Below are positions 1 to 35,227 of a DNA stretch of 64,000 nucleotides, piece after piece. Each line of letters starts with the position of its first letter. The stretch's first letter is position 1. The stretch spans positions 124,001-188,000 of the forward strand of contig JAFVUV010000006.1 of the NCBI GenBank assembly GCA_017502525.1, in the 5' to 3' direction. The notes under the pieces are model-generated. The model worked only from the letters and a program-made list of their open reading frames with translations, was not told the DNA's origin and did no database searches. The position numbers and the translations under genes are program-made. The DNA is from Clostridia bacterium (GTDB lineage: Bacteria; Bacillota; Clostridia; Christensenellales; Borkfalkiaceae).

Positions 1-1175
1 CAAAATGCCCCGAATTAAAACACAAGTTGATAGTAAATGGTACGCGTGAAGGATGGCGTAATTTTGATGAAGAATATACTATGTTCAGTACGCACTTTAA
101 TCGTACGGAAGACTCACCTTGTGGGGACGACTTGTTGTTAATGTTCTTTACTTCAGGTACGTCAGGGTATCCAAAAATTGCAGCGCATAATCATAAATAT
201 CCGTTAGGGCATTTCCATACTGCTAAATATTGGCACAACGTTGACCCTGATGGGTTGCATTTAACCATCTCGGATACGGGTTGGGCAAAATCAATGTGGG
301 GTAAACTTTACGGGCAATGGCTTTGCGAAGCGGCAACGTTCGTTTACGACTTTGACCGTTTTGACGCTGCTGATATATTACCTATGTTTGCAAAATATAA
401 TATCACAACTTTCTGTGCACCGCCCACAATGCTTAGAATGTTAATTAAAGAAGACATATCCAAATACGATTTTTCTTCGGTGCGCCATATGTCAACGGCG
501 GGCGAGGCACTTAATCCCGAAGTATACAATCAATTTGAGAAATTGACGGGATTGCAAATTAAAGAAGGTTTTGGGCAATCAGAAACTACAATGCTCGTTG
601 GAAACCTTGTTGGTAAACCGCATAAGATAGGTTCGATGGGTAAACCTGCACCTATATACGATATGGATATTGTTGACGAAAACGGCAACTCGGTTGCAGT
701 AGGTGAAGTTGGTGAAATCGTAGTGAACGTTAAAGACGGAGCACCTTGTGGATTATTCACAGGATACTACGGCGACGAAGAAAAGACAAAAGAAGTTTGG
801 CACGACGGTTATTATCACACAGGTGATACGGCTTGGCGTGATGAAGATGGATTTTATTGGTATGTTGGTCGTGTTGATGACGTCATCAAATCAAGTGGTT
901 ACCGTATAGGGCCGTTTGAAATAGAAAGCGTAATTATGGAATTGCCTTTCGTATTAGAATGTGGCGTTTCGGCAGAACCTGATGAAGTTCGTGGACAAGT
1001 TGTAAAAGCAAGCGTAGTTTTGGTTAAGGGATACGAACCTAGCGAAGAATTGAAGAAGGAAATTCAAACTTACGTTAAGGCTAAAACCGCACCGTATAAA
1101 TATCCAAGAATAGTTGTATTCCGTGACCAATTACCAAAGACTGTTAGCGGAAAAATCCAAAGAAACAAACTGTAA
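1..1175 (+). CDS. Acyl-CoA synthetase (AMP-forming), 5'-truncated
   Basis: The frame is open from the window edge, so this is the C-terminal ~390 residues of an acyl-adenylate-forming enzyme of usually ~550 residues; the TTG at 27 is probably internal. The phosphate-binding loop FTSGTSGYPK, the GFGQSETT motif, the YHTGDTAWRDEDG hinge region and the C-terminal catalytic lysine in KTVSGKIQR are all present. The family activates a carboxylate with ATP, then transfers it to CoA. The sequence pattern is closest to medium-chain or acetyl-type (MACS) synthetases; the chain length of the substrate cannot be told. It ends in a strong terminator and stands apart from the surface-protein cassette downstream. 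Confidence 0.9.
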   Translation, partial: KCPELKHKLIVNGTREGWRNFDEEYTMFSTHFNRTEDSPCGDDLLLMFFTSGTSGYPKIAAHNHKYPLGHFHTAKYWHNVDPDGLHLTISDTGWAKSMWGKLYGQWLCEAATFVYDFDRFDAADILPMFAKYNITTFCAPPTMLRMLIKEDISKYDFSSVRHMSTAGEALNPEVYNQFEKLTGLQIKEGFGQSETTMLVGNLVGKPHKIGSMGKPAPIYDMDIVDENGNSVAVGEVGEIVVNVKDGAPCGLFTGYYGDEEKTKEVWHDGYYHTGDTAWRDEDGFYWYVGRVDDVIKSSGYRIGPFEIESVIMELPFVLECGVSAEPDEVRGQVVKASVVLVKGYEPSEELKKEIQTYVKAKTAPYKYPRIVVFRDQLPKTVSGKIQRNKL

Positions 1176-1190
1176 TAGAAATAAAAACAT

Positions 1191-1229
1191 AACTCTCATC
1201 ATATTAGATATGGTGGGAGTTCTTTTTTT
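1191..1229 (+). terminator. Rho-independent terminator
   Basis: A 14-bp stem (1191-1204 with 1208-1221, two G-T pairs, 3-nt loop) is followed by a run of seven T. It sits 15 bases after the acyl-CoA synthetase stop. Confidence 0.9.
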
Positions 1230-1523
1230 GTTTTTTTTAATAATAGACATGGAGTATTTATGGATTATTTGCGTTCTAGCATAATCAACACCACGTGTTA
1301 TTAAATAAGATAATCAAACACCAATGCCATTTAAATTTACATCAAAACCCGTGTGTATAATTCAATAATAGGTTGGGACCTGTTATTAAAAATTGAAAAA
1401 TAGGATAAAAACATATAAACACAACATATCGTGTGCGATAAAATAATAAACACAAATTTGTAAAAAAATATAAAAAAATAAGCTAAAAAACATCAATTAT
1501 TTTCATTTTTTTTTAAAATTCAA
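1230..1523. other. AT-rich intergenic spacer without a gene
   Basis: About 290 bases between the terminator and the promoter of the SipW cassette. It is strongly AT-rich with many stops in all frames. I see no RNA gene, ribosome-binding site or convincing repeat in it. Confidence 0.7.
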
Positions 1524-1552
1524 TTGACAAACAACGATGTTGCTCATATAAT
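1524..1552 (+). promoter_or_regulatory. Consensus sigma-A promoter of the SipW cassette
   Basis: TTGACA (1524-1529) and TATAAT (1547-1552) are separated by exactly 17 bases, a perfect housekeeping promoter. The spacer holds the 11-bp palindrome CAACGATGTTG (1532-1542), a possible operator. The leader to the GTG start at 1624 would be about 65 nt. This is one of the two perfect consensus promoters in the window, which suggests strong expression unless repressed. Confidence 0.85.
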
Positions 1553-1623
1553 TATAATCCCAATAAAGTATTTGCGAGATTAATTTAATGGACATCTTGT
1601 AATAACTAAGAGAGGCAATTGCG

Positions 1624-3600
1624 GTGGAAAAAACAAAAAAACCAAAACTGTTTTTCGAAAAGACCATTAACGTTTTTGCTTGGCTGTGTTTAGTCTTGGC
1701 TGTAATTCTAGCAATAATTTCAGCTACGGCAGTGATTAGTGGAGAAAATAACGGGAAAGAGATTTTGGGGCATAAAATTTTAATAGTTAACACCGACTCG
1801 ATGAGCAAGTCAGCGATGAGTGAGGATGAGAAGATTTTCTTTAATGCAGGGGACATCATTATTATACGTATGATAACTAATCCTAACGAGCTTAAAGAAG
1901 GGGATGTAATATCTTTCTTTTCGTATAATCCTGAGTCAATGGGAAAAACGGTAACACACAAAATTCGCAAGATTAATTATTCGAGTAGTGGAGAGATAAC
2001 AGGTATCGTTACTTACGGAATCAATACGGGAGTAAATGATATCGTTGAGGTTAAGCCCGAACACCTAGTCGGTAAATACGTTTCAAAAGTACCGGCAGTC
2101 GGCTTGCTTTTTTCGTTTATGAAAACTCCACGCGGATTTTATTTAAGTATATTAATCCCCGGCGTGTTGTTGATAATATTCTTTAGTGTAAAGGTTGGTA
2201 AGATTTTGGGAAAGAGAGAATTAGCAAAAGAATATAGTGATGAAATAAATTCACTAAAGGATAAAGATAAGATATTAGAAGGACAAAATAACACTCTGCT
2301 GGCAGGAGTAGGAATAGCTGGCGGGACTAGTTTACAAGACGAACAACTTACATTAGAAGAAAATAAGGAGCAGAACATGGAAGAAAACGTACAACAAACA
2401 ACTCAACAAGCACAAGGCCAAACTGCACCTGCAATATATCAAACGGTAACCATTAATTGCCCATCACCAATGATGTCGCAACCTGTGGTATACCAAACGG
2501 CACCAAGCCAAACGGGGTCGACAATTTGTCAAACGGTTTCTATGACACCACAACCCGTTGCATATCAGATGCCAATAATGACTATGCCGATACCTTATCA
2601 ACCCGTGCCTGTTCAATCGGCACCTGTTGCTTATCAAGCGGTACCCGTTCAACCCGCACCGGTAGTGTGTCAAACGATAGGTGAGAATGCTGCACCGGGA
2701 ACACCTGTATCCGTTCAGCCTAATTACGCGCCTACAGTATGTCAAACGATAGGGGAAAACGGCAAACCCACAATGCCACAACCTGTTGCATACCAAACAG
2801 TACCCGTTCAGCCCATACAGTTGTATCAACCCGTAGCCGTTCAGCCGATGACAGTTCAGCCTCAACCCGTTGCGCCTGCTAGTGCACAAACACAAGCACC
2901 TATAGAACCGATAAAAGAAGAAACGTCGGCAACTACGGTGGAGGAGCCTGAAATAAACAAGGAAGAAGAAATTACGGTTACAGAAGAAGAGAATATCGTT
3001 GTTAAAGAAGAACAACCTAAGGAAGAATTTGTCGCTGAAGAAGTTAAGGAAGAAGTTGCAATAACTGAATTGGAAGAAACTTCTGCAATAGAAACTGAAG
3101 AAGAATCTGTTATTGAACAATCTGAACTTGATAGCGATATGGAAGATGAAGAATCAAAAAACAAACTAAATATACCAGAAGGCGAGAAAAAGCCATTTAC
3201 GGAAAAATTAGTTAATGCCAAAGAAGAAACCCAGAATTATTTTAATGCAGTTCACAACGAACTCGTATCGTACAAAAAGGTAAGTTCAAGAGTTTCGTTT
3301 AGATGCGTGTCATATAGGAAAGGGCGTACGCTACTTGCAAAGATAGGTCTTCGTGGAAAAACCTTGACGGGATATTTTAATTTAGACGTTAAAGATTTTA
3401 ACGATAAGGTATTCTTTCAAAAAGATATGTCAGGGGTTAAAGCATATGAAGAAGTTCCTTTTGCAGTAAAAATTAGAAGTGAACGCGCTTGTAACAACGC
3501 AACTAAACTCGTTGGCGCGGTAGCTGAAAAATTTGAACTTAAAAAGAACCCTAAATTTGAAGCAGTCGACCAAGTTAAGCAATATAGAGACGAAAAATAA
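1624..3600 (+). CDS. sipW: SipW-type signal peptidase I with long cytosolic extension
   Basis: A 658-residue protein starting at GTG behind AAGAGAGG (8-base spacing). Residues 1-190 form a signal peptidase of the ER/SipW type: transmembrane segment at ~16-39, catalytic Ser59 in TDSMS, His112 in VTHKI replacing the usual lysine, and a second transmembrane segment at ~173-189. By the positive-inside rule (KVGKILGKRE after it) the remaining ~470 residues are cytosolic. They comprise a Gln/Pro/Val-rich repeat region (~245-430; CQTIGEN occurs twice), a Glu-rich stretch (~430-540) and a basic folded domain (~555-650). That last domain resembles an unnamed domain I recall from other Clostridia. Typical SipW proteins are ~190 residues, so the fusion is unusual. 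The next two genes encode matching substrates. Confidence 0.85.
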   Translation: MEKTKKPKLFFEKTINVFAWLCLVLAVILAIISATAVISGENNGKEILGHKILIVNTDSMSKSAMSEDEKIFFNAGDIIIIRMITNPNELKEGDVISFFSYNPESMGKTVTHKIRKINYSSSGEITGIVTYGINTGVNDIVEVKPEHLVGKYVSKVPAVGLLFSFMKTPRGFYLSILIPGVLLIIFFSVKVGKILGKRELAKEYSDEINSLKDKDKILEGQNNTLLAGVGIAGGTSLQDEQLTLEENKEQNMEENVQQTTQQAQGQTAPAIYQTVTINCPSPMMSQPVVYQTAPSQTGSTICQTVSMTPQPVAYQMPIMTMPIPYQPVPVQSAPVAYQAVPVQPAPVVCQTIGENAAPGTPVSVQPNYAPTVCQTIGENGKPTMPQPVAYQTVPVQPIQLYQPVAVQPMTVQPQPVAPASAQTQAPIEPIKEETSATTVEEPEINKEEEITVTEEENIVVKEEQPKEEFVAEEVKEEVAITELEETSAIETEEESVIEQSELDSDMEDEESKNKLNIPEGEKKPFTEKLVNAKEETQNYFNAVHNELVSYKKVSSRVSFRCVSYRKGRTLLAKIGLRGKTLTGYFNLDVKDFNDKVFFQKDMSGVKAYEEVPFAVKIRSERACNNATKLVGAVAEKFELKKNPKFEAVDQVKQYRDEK

Positions 3601-3637
3601 TTTTGAAAAATAATTTTTTGATAAAAGGAAAAAGAAT

Positions 3638-5125
3638 ATGAAAGTTATAAATACTAGAAAATCGTTGGTAACCAGTATAATTGCAATAATAATCAGTTTT
3701 AGCATACTAATCGGCAGTACTTTTGCTTGGTTTACTGACTCAGCAAGCAGTGGAATTAACAAAATTCAGTCTGGTAATTTAGACGTTGGTTTAGTTTATA
3801 CAAACTCATATAACGGCACACCTGAAGAAGTCCATGAAAATACTAAGATTTTCACGGATATCAACGGTGACCCGATTTTATGGGAACCGGGTGCATTTGC
3901 AAGCGGACGTTTTGAAGTGAAAAACGATGGTTCTTTAGCACTCAAGTATGAATTAAGTATTATACAAGCAAATGCAACAGCAACGCCAAGTGGCAAAACT
4001 CTTGCAGATGCACTTACCGTATACGCGCTTACTCGAAACAAATCAACGGGAACGGACGACGTAATGGGAGATGCAAATCTTGAAGCTTTACAAATTGACA
4101 GTGCAGTTCCAGAATACGATCCACAAAATATGCCGGTATTTAAAGACGGGTTGACCTTGAAAGGATATTTACTTCCTAGTGAAGCAATCACTTATGAAAT
4201 CGGTATATTCTGGGAACCTACAGAAAACGATAATGAATATAATATTCCTGGTGGGTTATCAATCGACTTTGCAGTAGCGCTTGTAGCAACGCAAGTTTCA
4301 TATGAAAATGATGGGGACGGTTCTTTCTATGATGAAAATGCTAATTTCCCTGTAGTTCCTGCTATTCCGGAAATAGTAGATAGTGGTTCTGCTGGAGGTG
4401 TTAACTGGACGTTGAAAGATGATGGCTGCTTAACCGTTTCTCGTGCAGATACATCCGTGCCAGATTTGAATTGTGGTAAGATGTATGAACCTGGTGTTTG
4501 GAGAGAAGCCGTTGTTTATGATAAAAATGGTAACGCAACTAAAGAAGGTTATAACGCGCCAAATGCATCTGCAAATGAAGGTGGTTATTTTTGCGACCGT
4601 AATTTAGTAACTTCACTAGTTATTGAAGAAGGCGTTACTTCTATCGGTTCTTTTGCAGCACAGTTTCCAAATCTTACGGGAGAATTAATAATACCAGCAT
4701 CTGTAACTTATATTGGTCAAGGTGCATTTTCTAGTTGCCCCATAACTAAGCTGACTTTCGCTGAAGGCGGTACGGATAAACTTTGTATTGCTCCTGGTGC
4801 ATTTAAAAGATTGGATATAGAAGAAATAGTTTTTCCAGCAGATCGTCCTGAAATACACATACATTGTTGGGCATTAAATGATTGTTTGAATTTAAAGCAT
4901 GTAACATTCCCCGCTAACGTAACAACATTCTCTCAATGGACACATGTTGATTACTGTGGAATGAGTTTTGTAAATAGTGGAGATAGCCAAATTCTTGCAC
5001 GTTGTACTGCCCTTGAAACAATTACTTTTGGTAGTCAAACAGTTCGCGATATGTTCTTTAGTGCAGCATATAATACTAGCAATATTAATGCTATAGGCAA
5101 TGTTCAAATTATAATTGAAAATTAA
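3638..5125 (+). CDS. SipW-dependent secreted protein with leucine-rich-repeat C-terminus
   Basis: A 495-residue secreted protein. Residues ~7-35 match the SipW-cognate signal (basic RKS, a long Ile/Ser-rich core, then GSTFAWFTDSA), with probable cleavage after TFA; next comes the NKIQSGNLDVGL block typical of TasA/camelysin-like proteins. Residues ~30-240 are almost identical to the next gene. Residues ~320-475 carry BspA-type leucine-rich repeats (VTSIGSFAAQFPNL, VTYIGQGAF), usually involved in adhesion. No sortase motif or C-terminal membrane anchor is seen. AAAGGAAAA precedes the ATG. It lies 37 bases after sipW, so the two are probably co-transcribed. A matrix-fibre or adhesin role is inferred from the TasA relationship. 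Confidence 0.82.
   Translation: MKVINTRKSLVTSIIAIIISFSILIGSTFAWFTDSASSGINKIQSGNLDVGLVYTNSYNGTPEEVHENTKIFTDINGDPILWEPGAFASGRFEVKNDGSLALKYELSIIQANATATPSGKTLADALTVYALTRNKSTGTDDVMGDANLEALQIDSAVPEYDPQNMPVFKDGLTLKGYLLPSEAITYEIGIFWEPTENDNEYNIPGGLSIDFAVALVATQVSYENDGDGSFYDENANFPVVPAIPEIVDSGSAGGVNWTLKDDGCLTVSRADTSVPDLNCGKMYEPGVWREAVVYDKNGNATKEGYNAPNASANEGGYFCDRNLVTSLVIEEGVTSIGSFAAQFPNLTGELIIPASVTYIGQGAFSSCPITKLTFAEGGTDKLCIAPGAFKRLDIEEIVFPADRPEIHIHCWALNDCLNLKHVTFPANVTTFSQWTHVDYCGMSFVNSGDSQILARCTALETITFGSQTVRDMFFSAAYNTSNINAIGNVQIIIEN
3654..4350 (+). repeat. Direct repeat copy 1 (SipW-substrate N-terminal module)
   Basis: 697 bases matching 5184-5880 at a constant offset of 1530 without gaps. Most stretches of 100 bases differ at 0-4 positions. 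The exception is 3914-3961, where 15 of 48 positions differ. Confidence 0.95.
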
Positions 5126-5167
5126 TGTAGTTAAATAAATTTTTGACACTTAAAAGGAGAAAAAAAT

Positions 5168-7021
5168 ATGGATGTTTTTAAGGCTAGAAAATCGTTGGTA
5201 ACCAGCATTATTGCAATAATAATCAGTTTTAGCATACTAATCGGCAGTACTTTTGCTTGGTTTACTGACTCAGCAAGCAGTGGAATTAACAAAATTCAAT
5301 CTGGAAACTTAGACGTTGGTTTAGTTTATACAAACTCATATAACGGCACACCTGAAGAAGTCCATGAAAATACTAAGATTTTCATGGATATCAACGGTGA
5401 CCCGATTTTATGGGAACCGGGTGCATTTGCAAGCGGACGTTTTAAAGTATCAAACGACGGTTCACTTGCGTTAAAATATGAACTCAGTATAATACAAGCA
5501 AATGCAACAGCAACGCCAAGTGGCAAAACTCTTGCAGATGCACTCACCGTATACGCGCTTACTCGTAACAAATTAACGGGAACGGACGACGTAATGGGAG
5601 ATGCAAATCTTGAAGCTTTACAAATTGACAGTGCAGTTCCAGAATACGATCCACAAAATATGCCGGTATTTAAAGACGGATTGACCTTGAAAGGATATTT
5701 ACTTCCTAGTGAAGCAATCACTTATGAAATCGGTATATTCTGGGAACCTACAGAAAACGATAATGAATATAATATTCCTGGTGGGTTATCAATCGACTTT
5801 GCAGTAGCACTTGTAGCAACGCAAGTTTCATATGAAAATGACGGGGATGGTTCTTTCTATGATGAAAATGCTAATTTCCCCGCTCTTCCCGTAATTCCTA
5901 CGGCTGATGAATGGGATGGGACAGCAGATACTTCTTGGTACAATGATAGTGATACTACTTTCTCATTAGGCACGTCAGAGCAACTTGCAGGTTTTGCAAA
6001 ACTCGTAGATGAAGGAAATACTTTCGAAGGAAAAACCATAGAATTAGCTTGTGATTTAGATTTATATGCAGAAGATGCTAATGGCGAAGCTATTTGTTTT
6101 GACCCAATCGGAAGTTATAGACACGATAAAGCGTTTAAAGGAACGTTTGACGGAAAGGATAAAACTATTTCAAATTTAACACAAAACACTTGGGCTTTAG
6201 ATAACGGATATTATTATAGCGATTGTGGATTAGGACTTTTTGGTGCGGTTGAAGATGCGTATATTTGCAACTTGAAAGTAGATGGCGCTAGTATCTCGGG
6301 TGAATCTGCGATTTGTGGTATAATTGCAGGTGTTTCTAGTGGGGAGACCACTTATGAAAATATAACCGTTACTAATTCAAAAGGTGCAGATTATCAATAC
6401 TATTCGGGTGGTATAGTAGGTTGGGCAAGTGGTGAACAAAAATTCATTGGCTGTAACGTAGATGCATCAAATGCAATTGCTGCACAATGGGGTGACTTTG
6501 ATAACTCAACTGGTGGTGTAATTGGCGGTTGTGGTGGTTCTGCTCAAATTCTAATGAAAGATTGTACAGTTGCTTGTCGAATCGACGCTTATAACGACGT
6601 AACGTCTTCTTATCAATGGTATGCATATCGTCGTTGTGGTATGCTTATAGGTAATACAGGAAAAACAAAGACAGTTGATGGTACAACGTATGCGGATGCA
6701 CCACAACTTACTTGTGAAAATGTAACTGTAATTTACGGAGAATGGGCAGATTATACTTATTGCGAATTTGCTGGTACCTCATGGCCTTACGTTAGAGTTC
6801 AAGCAGGTGTTAGCAACAGTGCTTATTCTAACCCAAGATATGGACATCCTACTGATGCAAATGGAAATGAAGTAGTTGATGATAATCACGTTCATAACGA
6901 AGGTGAAGACCATCACATGTCGTGCGTATTTGACCAACTCTACGGTGGTGGACAAGGAGTTTACGGCATGGCAACTCACGACGGTGTAACCGTTATTTAT
7001 AACAATCCTAGCAAAAATTAA
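5168..7021 (+). CDS. SipW-dependent secreted protein with GLUG-like beta-helix C-terminus
   Basis: A 617-residue secreted protein starting behind AAAAGGAGAAAAA. Its signal peptide and first ~240 residues copy the preceding gene with about ten substitutions (for example T73M, S135L). After residue ~243 it is unrelated: a Gly-rich repeat region (~255-510) with a pattern like FKGTFDGKDKTISNLTQN and GLFGAVEDAYICNLKV, which resembles GLUG-type right-handed beta-helix adhesins, then a His/Asp/Glu cluster DDNHVHNEGEDHH (571-583). No anchor motif. It lies 42 bases after its paralogue and is the last gene of the cassette. Surface or matrix function is inferred. Confidence 0.82.
   Translation: MDVFKARKSLVTSIIAIIISFSILIGSTFAWFTDSASSGINKIQSGNLDVGLVYTNSYNGTPEEVHENTKIFMDINGDPILWEPGAFASGRFKVSNDGSLALKYELSIIQANATATPSGKTLADALTVYALTRNKLTGTDDVMGDANLEALQIDSAVPEYDPQNMPVFKDGLTLKGYLLPSEAITYEIGIFWEPTENDNEYNIPGGLSIDFAVALVATQVSYENDGDGSFYDENANFPALPVIPTADEWDGTADTSWYNDSDTTFSLGTSEQLAGFAKLVDEGNTFEGKTIELACDLDLYAEDANGEAICFDPIGSYRHDKAFKGTFDGKDKTISNLTQNTWALDNGYYYSDCGLGLFGAVEDAYICNLKVDGASISGESAICGIIAGVSSGETTYENITVTNSKGADYQYYSGGIVGWASGEQKFIGCNVDASNAIAAQWGDFDNSTGGVIGGCGGSAQILMKDCTVACRIDAYNDVTSSYQWYAYRRCGMLIGNTGKTKTVDGTTYADAPQLTCENVTVIYGEWADYTYCEFAGTSWPYVRVQAGVSNSAYSNPRYGHPTDANGNEVVDDNHVHNEGEDHHMSCVFDQLYGGGQGVYGMATHDGVTVIYNNPSKN
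5184..5880 (+). repeat. Direct repeat copy 2 (SipW-substrate N-terminal module)
   Basis: Second copy of 3654-4350. Similarity stops abruptly at 5880 (TTCCC), exactly where the two proteins take up different C-terminal domains, and begins within a few codons of the start. Confidence 0.95.
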
Positions 7022-7070
7022 AATTCTTTGTCTGGAACAAATCTTGCAACCTCAAGGATTTTAGAAAACA

Positions 7071-7102
7071 AAAGCGCGATTGCTGTTTAGCAATCGCGCT
7101 TT
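7071..7102. terminator. Bidirectional terminator hairpin
   Basis: A perfect 14-bp stem (7071-7084 with 7089-7102) and GTTT loop lie between convergent genes. The minus-strand side has the better T tract, so it mainly serves the M20 peptidase gene, but it also ends the SipW cassette. Confidence 0.8.
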
Positions 7103-7128
7103 ATAATTAATATATTAATTAAATAATA

Positions 7129-8283
7129 TTAATCAAAATAACTTAAAACAAGTTCTGCAGTAATTTTCATACCGGGTTCAAGGCTTGATATAAGCAATTT
7201 TTCACTTCTTGTATGCGCGCCCGATGAAATGTGGTTTCCTACGCAAACGGCAGGGATGCCTAAAGACATAGGGATGTTTGCGTCTGTTGAACCGCTATCA
7301 CGGTGACAAGTAACGCCAGAATATTTTTCACAAACGGCTATTGCGTGTGCGGTGATTTTTTCTAAAGCCTCTTCGTTCATATCACCCATGCAAGGTCTGT
7401 CCCCAACGAGTTTAACTTCAATTTCTGCTTTACCAGATTGTTTTGCTTTTTCTATTTGTTCTTCAAAGAATTTCTTCATTATAGCAAGACACTCTTTGTC
7501 GTCCGAACGGTACTCATAAAGCATTTTAGCGTTTTGAGCGATAGTATTAACGGAAGTACCACCTTCAACGATACCAACGTTATAAGTGGTTTTTGTTCCT
7601 TCTTTTTTAGGAATTTCACATTTATAAAGTTGGTTGATTAGGTCTGCCATTGCGACAATCGCGTTGCGTCTACCAAAACCTAAGAAAGAGTGGCCACCTT
7701 CGGTAGCAAACGAGATTTCGTATCTATGCGAACCTACGCATTGATTGATAATTTCATTGTAACAACCATCAAAAGTATAAAAAGCAGAAATTTTATCGCC
7801 ATAATCTTTGACGATTTGTCTAGAACCTTTAAGGTCGCCTAAACCTTCTTCGCAACTGTTTGCAACGAAAAGTATGCCGTATTTAGATTTTAAGTTGTTT
7901 TGAATAACGTACTTAGCAACCATCATTAAAACAGCAAGGCAAGACGTGTCGTCGCCGATACCTGGGCAATATATGTATTCGCCGTCTTCAGAGTAAGGTA
8001 ATGGAGAAAGGTCGGGGAAAACCAAGTCGGTATGCGCCATAAACACTACTATTTCGTCTTTATTGTCGCAATCTATAGGAACTATAACGTTCTTTGCTTC
8101 GTCAACTATAATTTGTTTAGCCCCTACATTTTCAAACCAATTTTTAACGTAATCAACTCTCAAATCTTCTTGACCGCTTGGTGCGGGGATAACTGCAAGT
8201 TCTTTAAGTAATTTACGCATCTCGTCGTAAGAGTTGTCAAGATAATTTAAAACTTTCTCATCTAATTTATCAATGTACTTCAT
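7129..8283 (-). CDS. M20 family metallopeptidase (PepT/DapE-like)
   Basis: 384 residues from the ATG at 8283, chosen because GGAGTT lies just upstream and the promoter overlaps the 14-residue upstream extension. Zinc ligands are visible in order: HTD in FMAHTDLVF, GIGDDTS (bridging Asp), CEEGLGD (general base and Glu), and a final His in GAHTRSEK. GGHS marks the lid/dimerisation domain. The family hydrolyses peptides or N-acyl amino acids in the cytosol with two metal ions. GSTDANIP near the C-terminus resembles peptidase T-like members, but the substrate cannot be assigned. It is transcribed alone. Confidence 0.85.
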   Translation of the reverse strand: MKYIDKLDEKVLNYLDNSYDEMRKLLKELAVIPAPSGQEDLRVDYVKNWFENVGAKQIIVDEAKNVIVPIDCDNKDEIVVFMAHTDLVFPDLSPLPYSEDGEYIYCPGIGDDTSCLAVLMMVAKYVIQNNLKSKYGILFVANSCEEGLGDLKGSRQIVKDYGDKISAFYTFDGCYNEIINQCVGSHRYEISFATEGGHSFLGFGRRNAIVAMADLINQLYKCEIPKKEGTKTTYNVGIVEGGTSVNTIAQNAKMLYEYRSDDKECLAIMKKFFEEQIEKAKQSGKAEIEVKLVGDRPCMGDMNEEALEKITAHAIAVCEKYSGVTCHRDSGSTDANIPMSLGIPAVCVGNHISSGAHTRSEKLLISSLEPGMKITAELVLSYFD

Positions 8284-8313
8284 TTTTGAACTCCTATTTA
8301 TTTTAACGTAAAG

Positions 8314-8342
8314 ATTATAGCACAAGTAAAAGCGATAAACAA
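8314..8342 (-). promoter_or_regulatory. Promoter of the M20 peptidase gene
   Basis: On the minus strand TTGTTT (8337-8342) and TATAAT (8314-8319) are 17 bases apart, leaving a ~25-nt leader before the ATG at 8283. Confidence 0.7.
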
Positions 8343-8370
8343 GTTAAATTCATAAAAAATTTAAAAACAA

Positions 8371-8392
8371 AAAACACCTGCAAAGGTGTTTT
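8371..8392 (-). terminator. Terminator of spoVG
   Basis: AAAACACCT (8371-8379) pairs with AGGTGTTTT (8384-8392) around a 4-nt loop. On the minus strand it is followed by a T-rich tract. It lies between spoVG and the M20 gene promoter. Confidence 0.7.
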
Positions 8393-8458
8393 AATGCAAA
8401 TTCAAACTAGCCGATAAGCAAACTCAACGGCTTGAAAACAAATCAAAGAACGTGTGTT

Positions 8459-8731
8459 TTACTCAGCGGGTTTAGCTTTTTCTTCTTCAAAAGCATTAAG
8501 AATAACTTTGATAAGTTCTTCTCTAGTTTCGGTTTTGATGGGGTGAGCGATATCCTTATATTCGCCGTCACCGGTTTTTCTTGATGGCATAGCAATAAAG
8601 TAACCTTCAGTGCCTTCAATAACCTTAATGTCGTGTACTACGAAGCAGTCGTCAAAAGTAACAGATGCAACAGCTTTAAGTTTGCTGTCGTCTTTTTTGA
8701 CAATACGTACTCTTACGTCTGTGATGTTCAT
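8459..8731 (-). CDS. spoVG: SpoVG, RNA/DNA-binding regulator
   Basis: 90 residues with the conserved SpoVG start ([11 protein letters not shown]) and the core [15 protein letters not shown] and YFIAMPSRK. In Bacillota this small basic protein binds nucleic acid and modulates cell division, envelope and, in spore formers, septation genes. Its presence does not prove sporulation. AAGGAAGG precedes the ATG. The gene has its own promoter and terminator and is divergent from murC. Confidence 0.95.
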
Positions 8732-8764
8732 TCGATTTTACCTTCCTTAACAAATATTACATAT

Positions 8765-8793
8765 ATATTATCACATATTTTTAGCAATTTCAA
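8765..8793 (-). promoter_or_regulatory. Promoter of spoVG
   Basis: On the minus strand TTGAAA (8788-8793) and TAATAT (8765-8770) are spaced 17 bases, about 34 bases before the start codon. Confidence 0.65.
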
Positions 8794-8867
8794 CAGTTTT
8801 TTAAAAAAAATTGAACAAAAATGCGATTTTTTGCGTTATTTTTAACGCTTTTTGCATAAATTAGCGT

Positions 8868-10223
8868 ATGGATAATAATATTTTCGATAAAAAAGTAAAG
8901 AGCGTGCATATCGTAGGCGTAGGCGGAGTCTCGACCTCAAGCCTTGCTGAATATCTTATGCTAAATGGTTATGCAGTAAGTGGTAGCGACTTAATCCAAA
9001 ACGAGCGAATAAATGAACTTGTAAAAAAAGGTCTAAAGTTTAAGCTTGGGCATAGAGCTAGAAACGTTAAGGGCGCGCAATCGGTAGTTTATACTTCAGC
9101 GGTAAATCGGTTTAATCCTGAAATCAAGCTCGCTATCAAAAAAAACGTACCGCTAGTTAAACGTAGCGAACTTTTAGGCCAAATTATTAGCGGGCATAAA
9201 AAATCGGTTGCAATATCTGGTTGCCACGGCAAAACTACCGCAACTGCAATGCTTGCAAATGTGCTCACTTTAGCAAATCTCAATCCGACCACGTTTATAG
9301 GAGGGGAAGACTGTTCTTTAGGTAGTTTCAATTTAGGCAACGGCGAATATGCGGTAGTGGAAGCTTGCGAATATAAGAAAAACTTTCTTGATATTAAAGC
9401 CACGTATTCGGTAATTTTAAACATTGATAACGACCATTTGGATACTTTTAGTGATATTGACGATACAGTCAAGGCGTTTAGTGATTTTTGCGCAAATTCG
9501 ATAGCGATAATTAATGCGGATGACGAAAATTGCGCTAAAATTTATAATCCCACAACTGTAACTTTCGGAATAAATAACAGTGCGGTTTACACGGCTAAAA
9601 ATCTAAAGAGAAATAAAACGGGCTATTCGTTTAACGTTTACGCGTATTCTCGTCCAATGGAAAAAATCAATTTAAAAGTTATAGGCAAACATAACGTCTA
9701 TAACGCGCTATCAGCAATAGCGGTTTGTGATATTATGGGTGTTAATTTTGGAACTATTAAGCGCGCGCTTGAAAATTTCAGGGGCGTTAAACGACGCGCG
9801 GAGTATTTAGGTAACGTGTTCGGTGCGGAAATTTTTGCAGATTACGCACATCATCCTAAAGAAATAGTCGCAACTTTAAGTGCGTTTAGTGAAAATTTTG
9901 ATAGAATAGGCGTTATATTTCAACCGCATACCTATTCAAGAACTAAATTTCTTATGGAAGATTTCGTAAGTGCGTTGAAAAATTATAATAACGTTATATA
10001 TGCTACGTATCCTGCGCGCGAAGAATATGATGCAAAAGGCGACGCGTTAACGTTGTATAGCAATCTTAAAAAGCAGAGTAAATATAGTGAATATTGTCAA
10101 ACACCGCAAGATTTATTAGAAAAAACCAAACGATTATGCTTAAACGTTCAATCGGTAATAGTTATGGGCGCGGGGGATATTTACCAAATATTCAAGGACG
10201 TGGTATTGCAAAAAACGAACTGA
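8868..10223 (+). CDS. murC: UDP-N-acetylmuramate--L-alanine ligase
   Basis: Cytosolic peptidoglycan precursor enzyme that adds L-alanine to UDP-MurNAc with ATP. The 451 residues show the Mur ligase order: N-terminal Rossmann loop VGVGGVSTSSLA (17-28), ATP-binding GCHGKTTAT (118-125), EACEYKKNFLD, the NIDNDHLDTF histidine, and the C-terminal YAHHPKEI. Length is normal for MurC. No clear Shine-Dalgarno sequence stands before the ATG. It is a single gene in this place, away from a mur cluster. Confidence 0.93.
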   Translation: MDNNIFDKKVKSVHIVGVGGVSTSSLAEYLMLNGYAVSGSDLIQNERINELVKKGLKFKLGHRARNVKGAQSVVYTSAVNRFNPEIKLAIKKNVPLVKRSELLGQIISGHKKSVAISGCHGKTTATAMLANVLTLANLNPTTFIGGEDCSLGSFNLGNGEYAVVEACEYKKNFLDIKATYSVILNIDNDHLDTFSDIDDTVKAFSDFCANSIAIINADDENCAKIYNPTTVTFGINNSAVYTAKNLKRNKTGYSFNVYAYSRPMEKINLKVIGKHNVYNALSAIAVCDIMGVNFGTIKRALENFRGVKRRAEYLGNVFGAEIFADYAHHPKEIVATLSAFSENFDRIGVIFQPHTYSRTKFLMEDFVSALKNYNNVIYATYPAREEYDAKGDALTLYSNLKKQSKYSEYCQTPQDLLEKTKRLCLNVQSVIVMGAGDIYQIFKDVVLQKTN

Positions 10224-32608: not shown

Positions 32609-33505
32609 ATGGGAATTTTTTCTAAACTTAAAGCCGTTTTAACTAAAACTAGAGACGGACTATCAAAAAAACTTAACGAGTTGTTTGCAAAAAACAAACT
32701 TGGCGAAGAGTTTTACGAAGAACTAGAGGATATCTTAATTTCAGCAGACGTTTCAGTTAAAACTACTATGGAAATCGTTGATGAAATAAGAGAAACAGCC
32801 ATTAAAGAAAAGTGTAAAGATAAAGAATACGTTATAGATTTGTTAAAAAACGAACTTTTTGAAACGCTTGATTACGCTGATAAAATCGAGTTTAAATCTC
32901 CTGCAATTATAATGGTGGTGGGGGTAAACGGCGTTGGTAAAACCACTACTATAGGTAAACTAGCAAACAAGTTCGTAAAAGAAAAAAAGAAAGTTACTAT
33001 TGCTGCTGCGGATACTTTCCGTGCGGCTGCAGCCGACCAGCTTTCCGTTTGGGCAGATAGGGCAAAGGTTAGAATTATAAAACACTCTGAAGGTGCTGAC
33101 GCGTCAGCCGTCGTGTTTGATGCAATCGACTCGGCAAAAGCGCAAAAAACCGACGTTTTAATTATAGATACGGCGGGGCGTTTGCACGTTAAGGCAAACT
33201 TAATGGAAGAGTTGAAGAAAATGGATAGAGTTGTTAAACGCGAATATCCCGACGCTAACTTCTATAAACTTATCGCGCTTGACGCTACGACAGGTCAAAA
33301 CGCATACAATCAAGTTGAAGTGTTTAACGAGGCGGTCGGTCTTGACGGTATTATTTTAACGAAACTTGACGGCACGGCAAAAGGTGGATTTATCATATCG
33401 CTTTCTTACGAATTAGAAGTGCCCGTGTGCTTTGTGGGGACGGGCGAAAAGATTGACGATATAGAAGATTTTGACGCAAAAGACTTTGTTGAAGGACTTT
33501 TTTAA
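32609..33505 (+). CDS. ftsY: Signal recognition particle receptor FtsY
   Basis: 298 residues. NG domain with GVNGVGKTTTIGKLA (P loop), DTFRAAAADQL, DTAGRL and TKLDGTAKGG. The acidic N-terminal domain of larger FtsY proteins is missing, as in many Bacillota. Docks the SRP-ribosome complex at the membrane; its partner Ffh is encoded two genes on. Confidence 0.96.
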   Translation: MGIFSKLKAVLTKTRDGLSKKLNELFAKNKLGEEFYEELEDILISADVSVKTTMEIVDEIRETAIKEKCKDKEYVIDLLKNELFETLDYADKIEFKSPAIIMVVGVNGVGKTTTIGKLANKFVKEKKKVTIAAADTFRAAAADQLSVWADRAKVRIIKHSEGADASAVVFDAIDSAKAQKTDVLIIDTAGRLHVKANLMEELKKMDRVVKREYPDANFYKLIALDATTGQNAYNQVEVFNEAVGLDGIILTKLDGTAKGGFIISLSYELEVPVCFVGTGEKIDDIEDFDAKDFVEGLF

Positions 33506-33523: not shown

Positions 33524-33552
33524 TTGACAATATAAGATTAAATCTATATAAT
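33524..33552 (+). promoter_or_regulatory. Perfect consensus promoter before ylxM-ffh
   Basis: TTGACA (33524-33529), 17 bases, TATAAT (33547-33552), placed 19 bases after the ftsY stop. It would drive the SRP and ribosome-maturation genes apart from the smc-ftsY transcript. Confidence 0.85.
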
Positions 33553-33605: not shown

Positions 33606-33911
33606 ATGGAAAAAGATTTACAGTACGTTGAACTTTTTGAATTGTATCAGGGGTTATTGACCGATAAACAGCGCGAGTTGTTTTCGCTACATTTTTGTTA
33701 TGACCTTTCACTATCTGAAATTGCAGAGCCTGAAGGAAATACACGCCAAAGTGTTTATGCGTCGGTTAAAAAAGTTAAAGAAAAACTTAACGAGTACGAA
33801 AATCTTTTACGTTTAAGAGAAAAAAATCAAAAGTTAAAACAGATTGCTGACCAACTTGCACTAGTAGATAAAGAAATTTCGGACAAGATATTAACTATAA
33901 TAGGTGAATAA
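33606..33911 (+). CDS. ylxM: YlxM, SRP-associated helix-turn-helix protein
   Basis: 101 residues of the UPF0122 family: FELYQGLLTDKQRELFSLHF, LSLSEIAE and NTRQSVYASVKKVKEKL resemble a sigma-factor region 4 helix-turn-helix. It always accompanies ffh and stimulates or modulates SRP in streptococci. A GTG at 33597 is an alternative start; neither has a clear Shine-Dalgarno sequence. Stop overlaps the ffh start (TAATG). Confidence 0.92.
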   Translation: MEKDLQYVELFELYQGLLTDKQRELFSLHFCYDLSLSEIAEPEGNTRQSVYASVKKVKEKLNEYENLLRLREKNQKLKQIADQLALVDKEISDKILTIIGE

Positions 33912-35227
33912 TGGCACTTTTTTCGGGCTTATCTGAAAAACTTAATCACATATTCAGTAAACTTACTAAACACGGTAAACTTACCGAACTCGAAATAAAA
34001 ACGGCAATGCGTGAAGTCCGTATTGCGCTTTTAGAAGCGGACGTAAACATTTCGGTTGTAAAAGAATTTGTTTCAAAAGTTAGTGAGCGCGCCGTTGGGC
34101 AAGAAATATTAAAAAGTTTAAGTCCTACTCAACAAGTTATTAAGATTGTTAATGAAGAATTGATAGCGCTTATGGGTAGTGCTAACAGTAAACTTGGGAC
34201 TTCGGATAATCCACCGACGGTTATAATGATGGCAGGTTTGCAAGGCGCGGGTAAAACGACGCTTGTTGGCAAACTTGGTATGATGTTAAAAAAGCAAAAC
34301 AAAAAACCATTATTAGTTGCGTGTGACGTTTACCGACCTGCAGCGATAAATCAACTTAAAGTGGTTGGTGAAAAAGCGGGTTGCACGGTTTTTGAAAAAG
34401 GTCAAGGCAACCCCGTAAAGATTGCAAAAGAAGGCGTTGCGTACGCTAAATCATACGGTTATGATACGGTTATAATCGATACCGCCGGTCGACTTCAAAT
34501 AGACGAAGATTTGATGAAAGAGCTTGAAAACATCAAGTCGGAAGTTAATCCTACGGAAATATTATTAGTCGTTGACTCAATGACTGGTCAAGTTGCCGTT
34601 GAAGTTGCAGATACGTTTAACAAGCGATTAGAAGTTACGGGTTTAGTGTTGACGAAACTTGACGGCGATACTCGTGGCGGTGCAACACTTTCAATGAAAG
34701 CGGTTACTGGTAAACCCATTAAATTCTGTTCGGTTGGCGAAAAACTTGGTGATTTAGAGCCGTTTTATCCCGATAGAATGGCGAATAGAATTCTCGGTAT
34801 GGGCGACGTGTTGTCGCTAATAGAAAAGGCGCAAGAAGCGGTTACCGAAGAAGAAGCAAAAAAGATGGAAAAGAAGTTTAGAGAAAATTCATTTACTCTT
34901 GACGACTATCTATCACAGTTTGAAACTATGAACAAAATGGGCGGAATAAAAGACGTTCTTGCAATGCTCCCCGGTATGGGAAGTAAGTTCAAAATTCGCG
35001 ATGAAGATATTGATGAAAAGAAGATTGCGCAAACCAAAGCAATAATTCAATCAATGACTATGTACGAGCGTGAAAACCCGCAAGTAATCAACTCGTCGCG
35101 CAAGATGAGAATTGCAAAGGGAAGCGGAACTACCGTTCAAGACGTAAATCGACTATTAAAACAATTTGACCAAACAAAACAAATGATGAAGCAAATGAAG
35201 AATAATCGTTTCTTCAAAGGTTTTTAA
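33911..35227 (+). CDS. ffh: Signal recognition particle protein Ffh
   Basis: 438 residues: N domain, GTPase with GLQGAGKTTLVGKLG, DTAGRLQID, TKLDGDTRGG, then a methionine-rich M domain (from ~300) that binds the signal sequence and SRP RNA. Complete. The SRP RNA gene itself is not in the window. Confidence 0.97.
   Translation: MALFSGLSEKLNHIFSKLTKHGKLTELEIKTAMREVRIALLEADVNISVVKEFVSKVSERAVGQEILKSLSPTQQVIKIVNEELIALMGSANSKLGTSDNPPTVIMMAGLQGAGKTTLVGKLGMMLKKQNKKPLLVACDVYRPAAINQLKVVGEKAGCTVFEKGQGNPVKIAKEGVAYAKSYGYDTVIIDTAGRLQIDEDLMKELENIKSEVNPTEILLVVDSMTGQVAVEVADTFNKRLEVTGLVLTKLDGDTRGGATLSMKAVTGKPIKFCSVGEKLGDLEPFYPDRMANRILGMGDVLSLIEKAQEAVTEEEAKKMEKKFRENSFTLDDYLSQFETMNKMGGIKDVLAMLPGMGSKFKIRDEDIDEKKIAQTKAIIQSMTMYERENPQVINSSRKMRIAKGSGTTVQDVNRLLKQFDQTKQMMKQMKNNRFFKGF

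Follow-up and report, generated by a model that had tools for sequence, protein, structure and literature searches.

A SipW-type signal peptidase gene adjoining two genes for TasA-like heads with unrelated tails in a Clostridia genome

What would a SipW-type signal peptidase export when the two genes behind its own encode one and the same head joined to two unrelated tails? This question is raised by a cassette at positions 1524–7021 of the window, which is the whole stretch of 64,000 nucleotides analyzed here (Clostridia bacterium, assembly GCA_017502525.1, contig JAFVUV010000006.1). Fibres of the TasA and BsaA type are matrix scaffolds of one plain subunit. The cassette is best called a variant of the TasA/BsaA-SipW matrix system, within a modular, multicopy adhesin-fibre family. 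The favored reading, in which the heads polymerize into a fibre, the tails vary, and the cassette supplies its own peptidase, is held with slightly better than even confidence. The original prediction, made from the letters of the DNA, had proposed a dedicated export and surface-fibre system; that interpretation was partly supported, and it lacked the multicopy expansion, the helix tail usual in the genus, the signature of gene conversion, and the extension of the peptidase.

The cassette consists of the peptidase gene (1624–3600), a gap of 37 bases, the gene for a 495-residue protein with a TasA-like head and a leucine-rich-repeat (LRR) tail (3638–5125), a gap of 42 bases, and the gene for a 617-residue protein with a TasA-like head and a beta-helix tail (5168–7021). 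All three genes lie on the plus strand, downstream of a sigma-70-type promoter, TTGACA-17-TATAAT (1524–1552, plus strand), which matches the consensus at 12/12 positions. The promoter and the three open reading frames (ORFs) were all found where the original prediction had placed them. Both secreted proteins begin with a SipW-type signal peptide, as had been claimed, with a predicted cut site (copy 1, approximately residues 1–30, at 3638–3727, modelled as a helix at residues 4–32; copy 2 at 5168–5257); the TIGR04088 model gave 29.9 and 28.2 bits, respectively, against a cut-off of 19. The head domains follow at 3728–4360 and 5258–5890. The signal and head together (residues 1–241) are 96–97% identical in amino acid sequence between the two proteins, the identity drops abruptly at approximately residue 238, and the tails are unrelated (identity 0.01). 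The constant head with different tails, which had been inferred from this one pair, is real and general.

The AlphaFold model of the head (pLDDT 80.5) was compared with 350,542 chains of the Protein Data Bank (PDB) using Foldseek. The top match was the TasA fibre subunit 8aur_A (E 1.3e-4, probability 1.00), which was the sole match below 1e-3, and the PapG pilin, which is of the donor-strand type, came second. When a profile of 11 heads was searched against the PDB, TasA chains alone appeared up to E 1, at weak values of E 0.046–0.061. The Peptidase_M73 model (PF12389) gave 24.1 bits for the LRR protein and 22.0 bits for the helix protein, around its gathering threshold of 22.5, and the NCBI models of TasA and BsaA matched 9 and 3 of 43 heads, respectively (E ≤ 0.01). 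A TasA-type jelly-roll fold of the head is supported by the model; structure is needed for this assignment, as sequence alone is insufficient. A fold unlike that of TasA, which had been named beforehand as the contrary outcome, was not seen.

In the TasA fibre, the donor strand comprises residues 28–38, right after the signal peptide (PMC9674648). The putative counterpart in the present head is the segment of residues 34–49, DSASSGINKIQSGNLD (3737–3784, plus strand), which was paired by eye with the donor strand in the known sequence of TasA. Across 43 sequences, none of the 177 other 16-residue windows of the mature head is as conserved as this segment (3.25 bits). Residues 26–33 were left out of this test because the pattern of the genome scan had selected on them, and residues 34–49 lie outside that pattern, save at most the neighbor of the first residue. 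The segment has a low pLDDT in the monomer model, which would fit a strand without a partner.

The tail of the first protein (4361–5122, plus strand) is a BspA-type leucine-rich repeat, as had been proposed; LRR_5 (PF13306) was matched at E 9.2e-19 by the tail and at E 2.7e-17 by the whole protein (63.3 bits, gathering threshold 27.7). A copy taken from elsewhere in the same genome was rejected as its origin, with just a weak partial match at C4:63058. The tail of the second protein (5891–7018, plus strand), which ends in FDQLYGG...VTVIYNN, is predicted to be a right-handed beta-helix resembling GLUG repeats and the N-terminal part of IgA proteases. Its AlphaFold model, built with five sequences, shows a parallel beta-helix-like pattern of strands (pLDDT 78.5, pTM 0.81). 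The best Foldseek match was 3n6z, an IgA1-protease-like protein (E 1.8e-3), followed by IgA1 protease and fucoidan and pectate lyases; these leading matches are all beta-helical, yet none is below E 1.8e-3. No match to GLUG (PF07581) or any other Pfam family was found in this tail, and a weak Glug match below the gathering threshold (E 0.027) was obtained in the ortholog of genome G017. The earlier label of a GLUG-like helix is a reasonable one for the predicted fold, but Pfam does not confirm its GLUG part. Neither secreted protein has an LPXTG motif or a C-terminal hydrophobic stretch, in agreement with the earlier statement that a sortase motif and a C-terminal anchor are absent.

The peptidase, a protein of 658 residues with a GTG start, is of the Sec11/SipW type. 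It scored 56.7 bits with the curated model TIGR02228, above the cut-off of 51.85, and 63.5 bits (E 1.8e-17) with NF046067, the SipW equivalog of Bacillus, under the cut-off of 190. Ser59, His112, and Asp139 are invariant across 17 aligned relatives, which is the S26B arrangement of a serine with histidine as the general base and agrees with the Ser/His signal peptidase predicted originally. Hydrophobicity and the alignment indicate two hydrophobic, transmembrane segments in the catalytic domain (1624–2238), at approximately residues 9–42 and 168–196; together with the basic N-terminus, they suggest that the catalytic part lies outside and the C-terminal part inside the cell. The extension beyond the catalytic part comprises approximately 460 residues. 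It consists of a predicted cytoplasmic linker of approximately 310 residues (2239–3168), Gln/Pro/Val-rich and then acidic, with an imperfect 33-nt repeat (2655–2687/2727–2759), and a C-terminal domain of 143 residues without a Pfam match (3169–3600), all on the plus strand. The G017 peptidase has a comparable linker.

In the proposed mechanism, the operon would make its own membrane-bound SipW/Sec11-type peptidase, and the two proteins would leave the cell through Sec. By analogy with TasA and BsaA, the peptidase may cleave both proteins and free an N-terminal donor strand, and this mature N-terminal segment of the jelly-roll head would link head to head. SipW-dependent export and polymerization in a clostridium are known from SipW-BsaA of Clostridium perfringens (PMC7395162). 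Because the two heads are nearly identical, the proteins could co-polymerize, and mixed fibres of both would be possible. Each subunit would show a large C-terminal module, LRR or beta-helix, outside the fibre. The head would thus be the constant polymerization part, kept constant by gene conversion, and the tails would be exchangeable recognition modules, probably adhesive ones.

The genome of the window (1.46 Mb, approximately 96% complete) contains one close SipW only, that of the cassette. No head other than the two of the cassette, tailless ones included, was found in this genome, and neither was the short companion subunit (A6 type) that stands beside SipW in some relatives; because both are absent, the description of the cassette as self-contained fits. 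The search for further heads, which the original prediction had recommended, found none elsewhere in this genome; beyond it heads are widespread, with at least 452 confirmed head-encoding places in a scan of GTDB genomes. The 76 loci among the matches listed are nearly all from Clostridia, mainly from metagenome-assembled genomes (MAGs) of the gut, and within the order the head is patchy (10/297 sampled genomes).

The peptidase gene adjoins one or two head genes in seven genomes of the same genus and in G098. In G017, G042, G020, G016, and G003, a head carries the helix-type tail ending in FDQ(I/L)FGG...V(T/N)V(I/V)YNN; the orthologs in G017 and G042 are 66–67% identical to the window protein in the tail, and G003 encodes a further head whose tail is pectate-lyase-like. 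The LRR-tail gene, located between the peptidase gene and the helix-tail ortholog, is present only here among the same-genus cassettes read. The genus usually has the helix tail; the LRR gene is the addition. The genes flanking the cassette differ among the window, G017, and G042, which places it at different genomic sites.

Of 108 distinct head ORFs analyzed, 104 extend beyond the head, and their tails measure 37 to more than 1500 residues. Few Pfam matches were obtained in the 102 tails scanned, namely LRR_5, beta-helix, pectate-lyase-like adhesive, DUF285, Ig-like, and Glug. Clustering of the tails by BLAST single linkage was abandoned, as it gave a single uninformative component of 92. A general rule of two heads only was refuted by genomes with many. 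Lapin-032 bin13 (CANQGK01; L095–L129, L151), a MAG of 2.4 Mb, has approximately 40 heads on 24 contigs with mostly unannotated tails, with median identities of 0.44 for the heads and 0.21 for the tails, and a second expanded MAG has 17–19 heads. By profile search, the former has one SipW-type peptidase and the latter two. That these loci represent a modular class of fibres in gut Clostridia, with a constant TasA-type head homogenized by gene conversion, up to approximately 40 tails per species, one SipW-type peptidase for them all, and mixed, switchable adhesive fibres, is a tentative proposal to which we give less than even weight. Such fibres would be a Gram-positive counterpart of tip-adhesin diversity, with an adhesin on every subunit.

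Three genomes have pairs of near-identical heads whose tails are unrelated, with head and tail identities of 0.97 and 0.01 for the window pair, 0.95 and 0.16 for L128/L129 of Lapin-032, and 0.93 and 0.23 for L116/L120 of RGIG3965. An ordinary recent tandem duplication followed by a tail swap without functional meaning, with simple paralogy behind the expansions elsewhere, would account for the tandem position of the window heads, 1530 bp apart, and for their DNA identity of 97–98% over most of their length. This explanation is very improbable, in view of how the differences are arranged. Between codons 7 and 238, the heads show 25 differing codons, and 11 of these fall inside 16 codons (93–108), a clustering reached in 0/20,000 random placements. 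In this patch the two copies are only 70.6% identical (0.706), which equals the identity of copy 1 to another species there; the value of 97–98% applies outside it. Moreover, pairs with a conserved head and unrelated tails recur in other genomes. The pattern is most simply read as an old duplication, after which gene conversion probably homogenized the heads and left one patch unconverted; the alternative for the patch is the import of a diverged stretch.

Several results weigh against a polymer of heads built by a dedicated peptidase. The global TM-score between the head and TasA is low (0.39–0.41), and the sequence similarity is marginal. The attempt to prove TasA homology from sequence only failed, as the profile from a deeper alignment of heads (A3), searched against the PDB, gave chance-like matches and missed every TasA chain at E ≤ 1; the window head was unmatched by the NCBI TasA (NF046066) and BsaA (TIGR04090) models at E 0.01. 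The same genome encodes two more S26 peptidases, one of the LepB type (contig C7) and a second one of the Sec11 type (contig C10). Furthermore, a tail of 250–375 residues on every subunit, unlike the tailless TasA and BsaA, might block the packing of a fibre. This bulk would be no obstacle if the head-tail proteins were single secreted or surface adhesins without a homopolymeric fibre, whose head self-complements or docks through its N-terminal strand onto a subunit or envelope partner as an export and retention module. Such an arrangement, which is unlikely but a serious competitor, is in line with the TasA monomer, which self-complements (PMC9674648), with the single tailed head and the lack of a tailless subunit in G017, G042, and G020, and with the dispersal of heads over many contigs in the expanded genomes. 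It accounts less well for the conservation of the putative donor segment, which exceeds that of the rest of the mature head, and for the fibre form of TasA being the top structural match; moreover, neither an anchor nor any other envelope-binding domain was found. A display of catalysis instead of adhesion by the head, with glycan-active or peptidase-related enzymes as the tails, is improbable. The Foldseek matches of the helix tail to IgA1-protease-like proteins and polysaccharide lyases point in this direction, as do the few other tails that match pectate-lyase-like families; however, the former are weak and cover the helical scaffold, both window tails are without a catalytic Pfam domain, LRR_5 tails are non-enzymatic, and the families matched include the pectate lyase-like adhesive and Ig-like domains.

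The favored head-polymer fibre can be compared with known systems. The cassette resembles tapA-sipW-tasA of Bacillus subtilis in that a SipW-type peptidase adjoins its substrates, with TIGR04088 signals, a TasA-fold head, and a putative N-terminal donor strand. However, TasA is tailless and TapA is a chaperone or minor subunit, whereas the subunits of the cassette are tailed, a search for a TapA or companion gene found none, and the peptidase is much extended at its C-terminus. The sipW-bsaABCRSD operon of C. perfringens is likewise clostridial, with the peptidase gene first and a secreted, beta-rich substrate without a sortase motif; in contrast to the cassette, its BsaA is an apparently tailless polymer subunit of approximately 23 kDa, and a two-component regulator lies in the operon (PMC7395162). 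The heads score around the gathering threshold of the Pfam model of camelysin but carry fused C-terminal modules, and a protease function is not implied. The first protein has the tail of BspA-type LRR_5 surface proteins, here joined to a TasA-like head with a SipW-type signal. The second tail shares its predicted fold with GLUG repeats and the N-terminal beta-helix of M26 IgA1 proteases, although no protease domain was detected in the window protein.

The components are of known kinds. No earlier description of TasA-type head-tail fusions, or of their combination, in which such heads bear variable C-terminal modules, as many as approximately 40 in one genome, beside a single detected SipW-type peptidase, was found in the open-access literature searched, outside which most subscription papers lie. 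If this subunit is regularly joined to variable tails and occurs in tens of copies per genome in uncultured gut Clostridia, it would provide a system of surface display and adhesion for organisms whose adhesins are poorly known. It would also offer a natural display scaffold, and the head sequence would make the whole repertoire easy to find.

The promoter at 1524–1552 is the sole 12/12 match within positions 1–9000, and the chance expectation for such a promoter is approximately 0.0003, given the base composition and an upstream region of 440 nt. In five of the six same-genus cassettes checked, those of G017, G042, G006, G020, and G016, the orthologous peptidase gene is likewise preceded by an exact TTGACA/TATAAT pair, with spacers of 16–18. 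A chance promoter is ruled out by the expectation and these five relatives, and the promoter is taken as real because the exact hexamers are conserved before orthologous peptidase genes. The window has just one further exact TTGACA-17-TATAAT, at 33524, between the genes at 32609–33505 and 33911–35227. As for signs of a mobile element, the window contains no tRNA genes; in G017, G042, and L090, the cassette has tRNA-Leu genes in its vicinity, but with two anticodons and at varying distances. An Rfam search of the window gave no match.

A short companion protein of approximately 180 residues ending in (A)VQTKNNPxRLF adjoins SipW-type peptidase genes at L102, L107, L111, L131, L149, L156, L159, L070, and L071. 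The three companions scanned had no NCBIfam match, and the protein is possibly a TapA-like or fibre-base subunit.

The second Sec11-type peptidase of the window's genome belongs to another export locus, L078 (G000:C10:76000-84000; 1147–6492, minus strand). This peptidase has 371 residues and scores 70.9 bits with TIGR02228, and the locus also encodes a DUF5305 membrane protein and small exported proteins, presumably substrates of this peptidase, of which one bears a weak LRR_5 tail. The DUF5305 protein, which adjoins the peptidase, carries the same C-terminal domain as the peptidase of the cassette, and so does a small membrane protein on contig C33. No Pfam name could be assigned to this domain. 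It was excluded as specific to signal peptidases, as it occurs in 36 of the 61 genomes searched, also in stand-alone or multi-copy proteins; because it is found so widely and in other proteins, it appears from sequence comparison to be a domain of the lineage and not a hallmark of SipW. The unnamed domain, of approximately 120–143 residues (window 3169–3600, L077 4483–5154, L078 3074–4786), sometimes with several copies per protein, merits its own family. The SipW-type peptidase of G016 (L069 3115–4851) has this domain twice in tandem.

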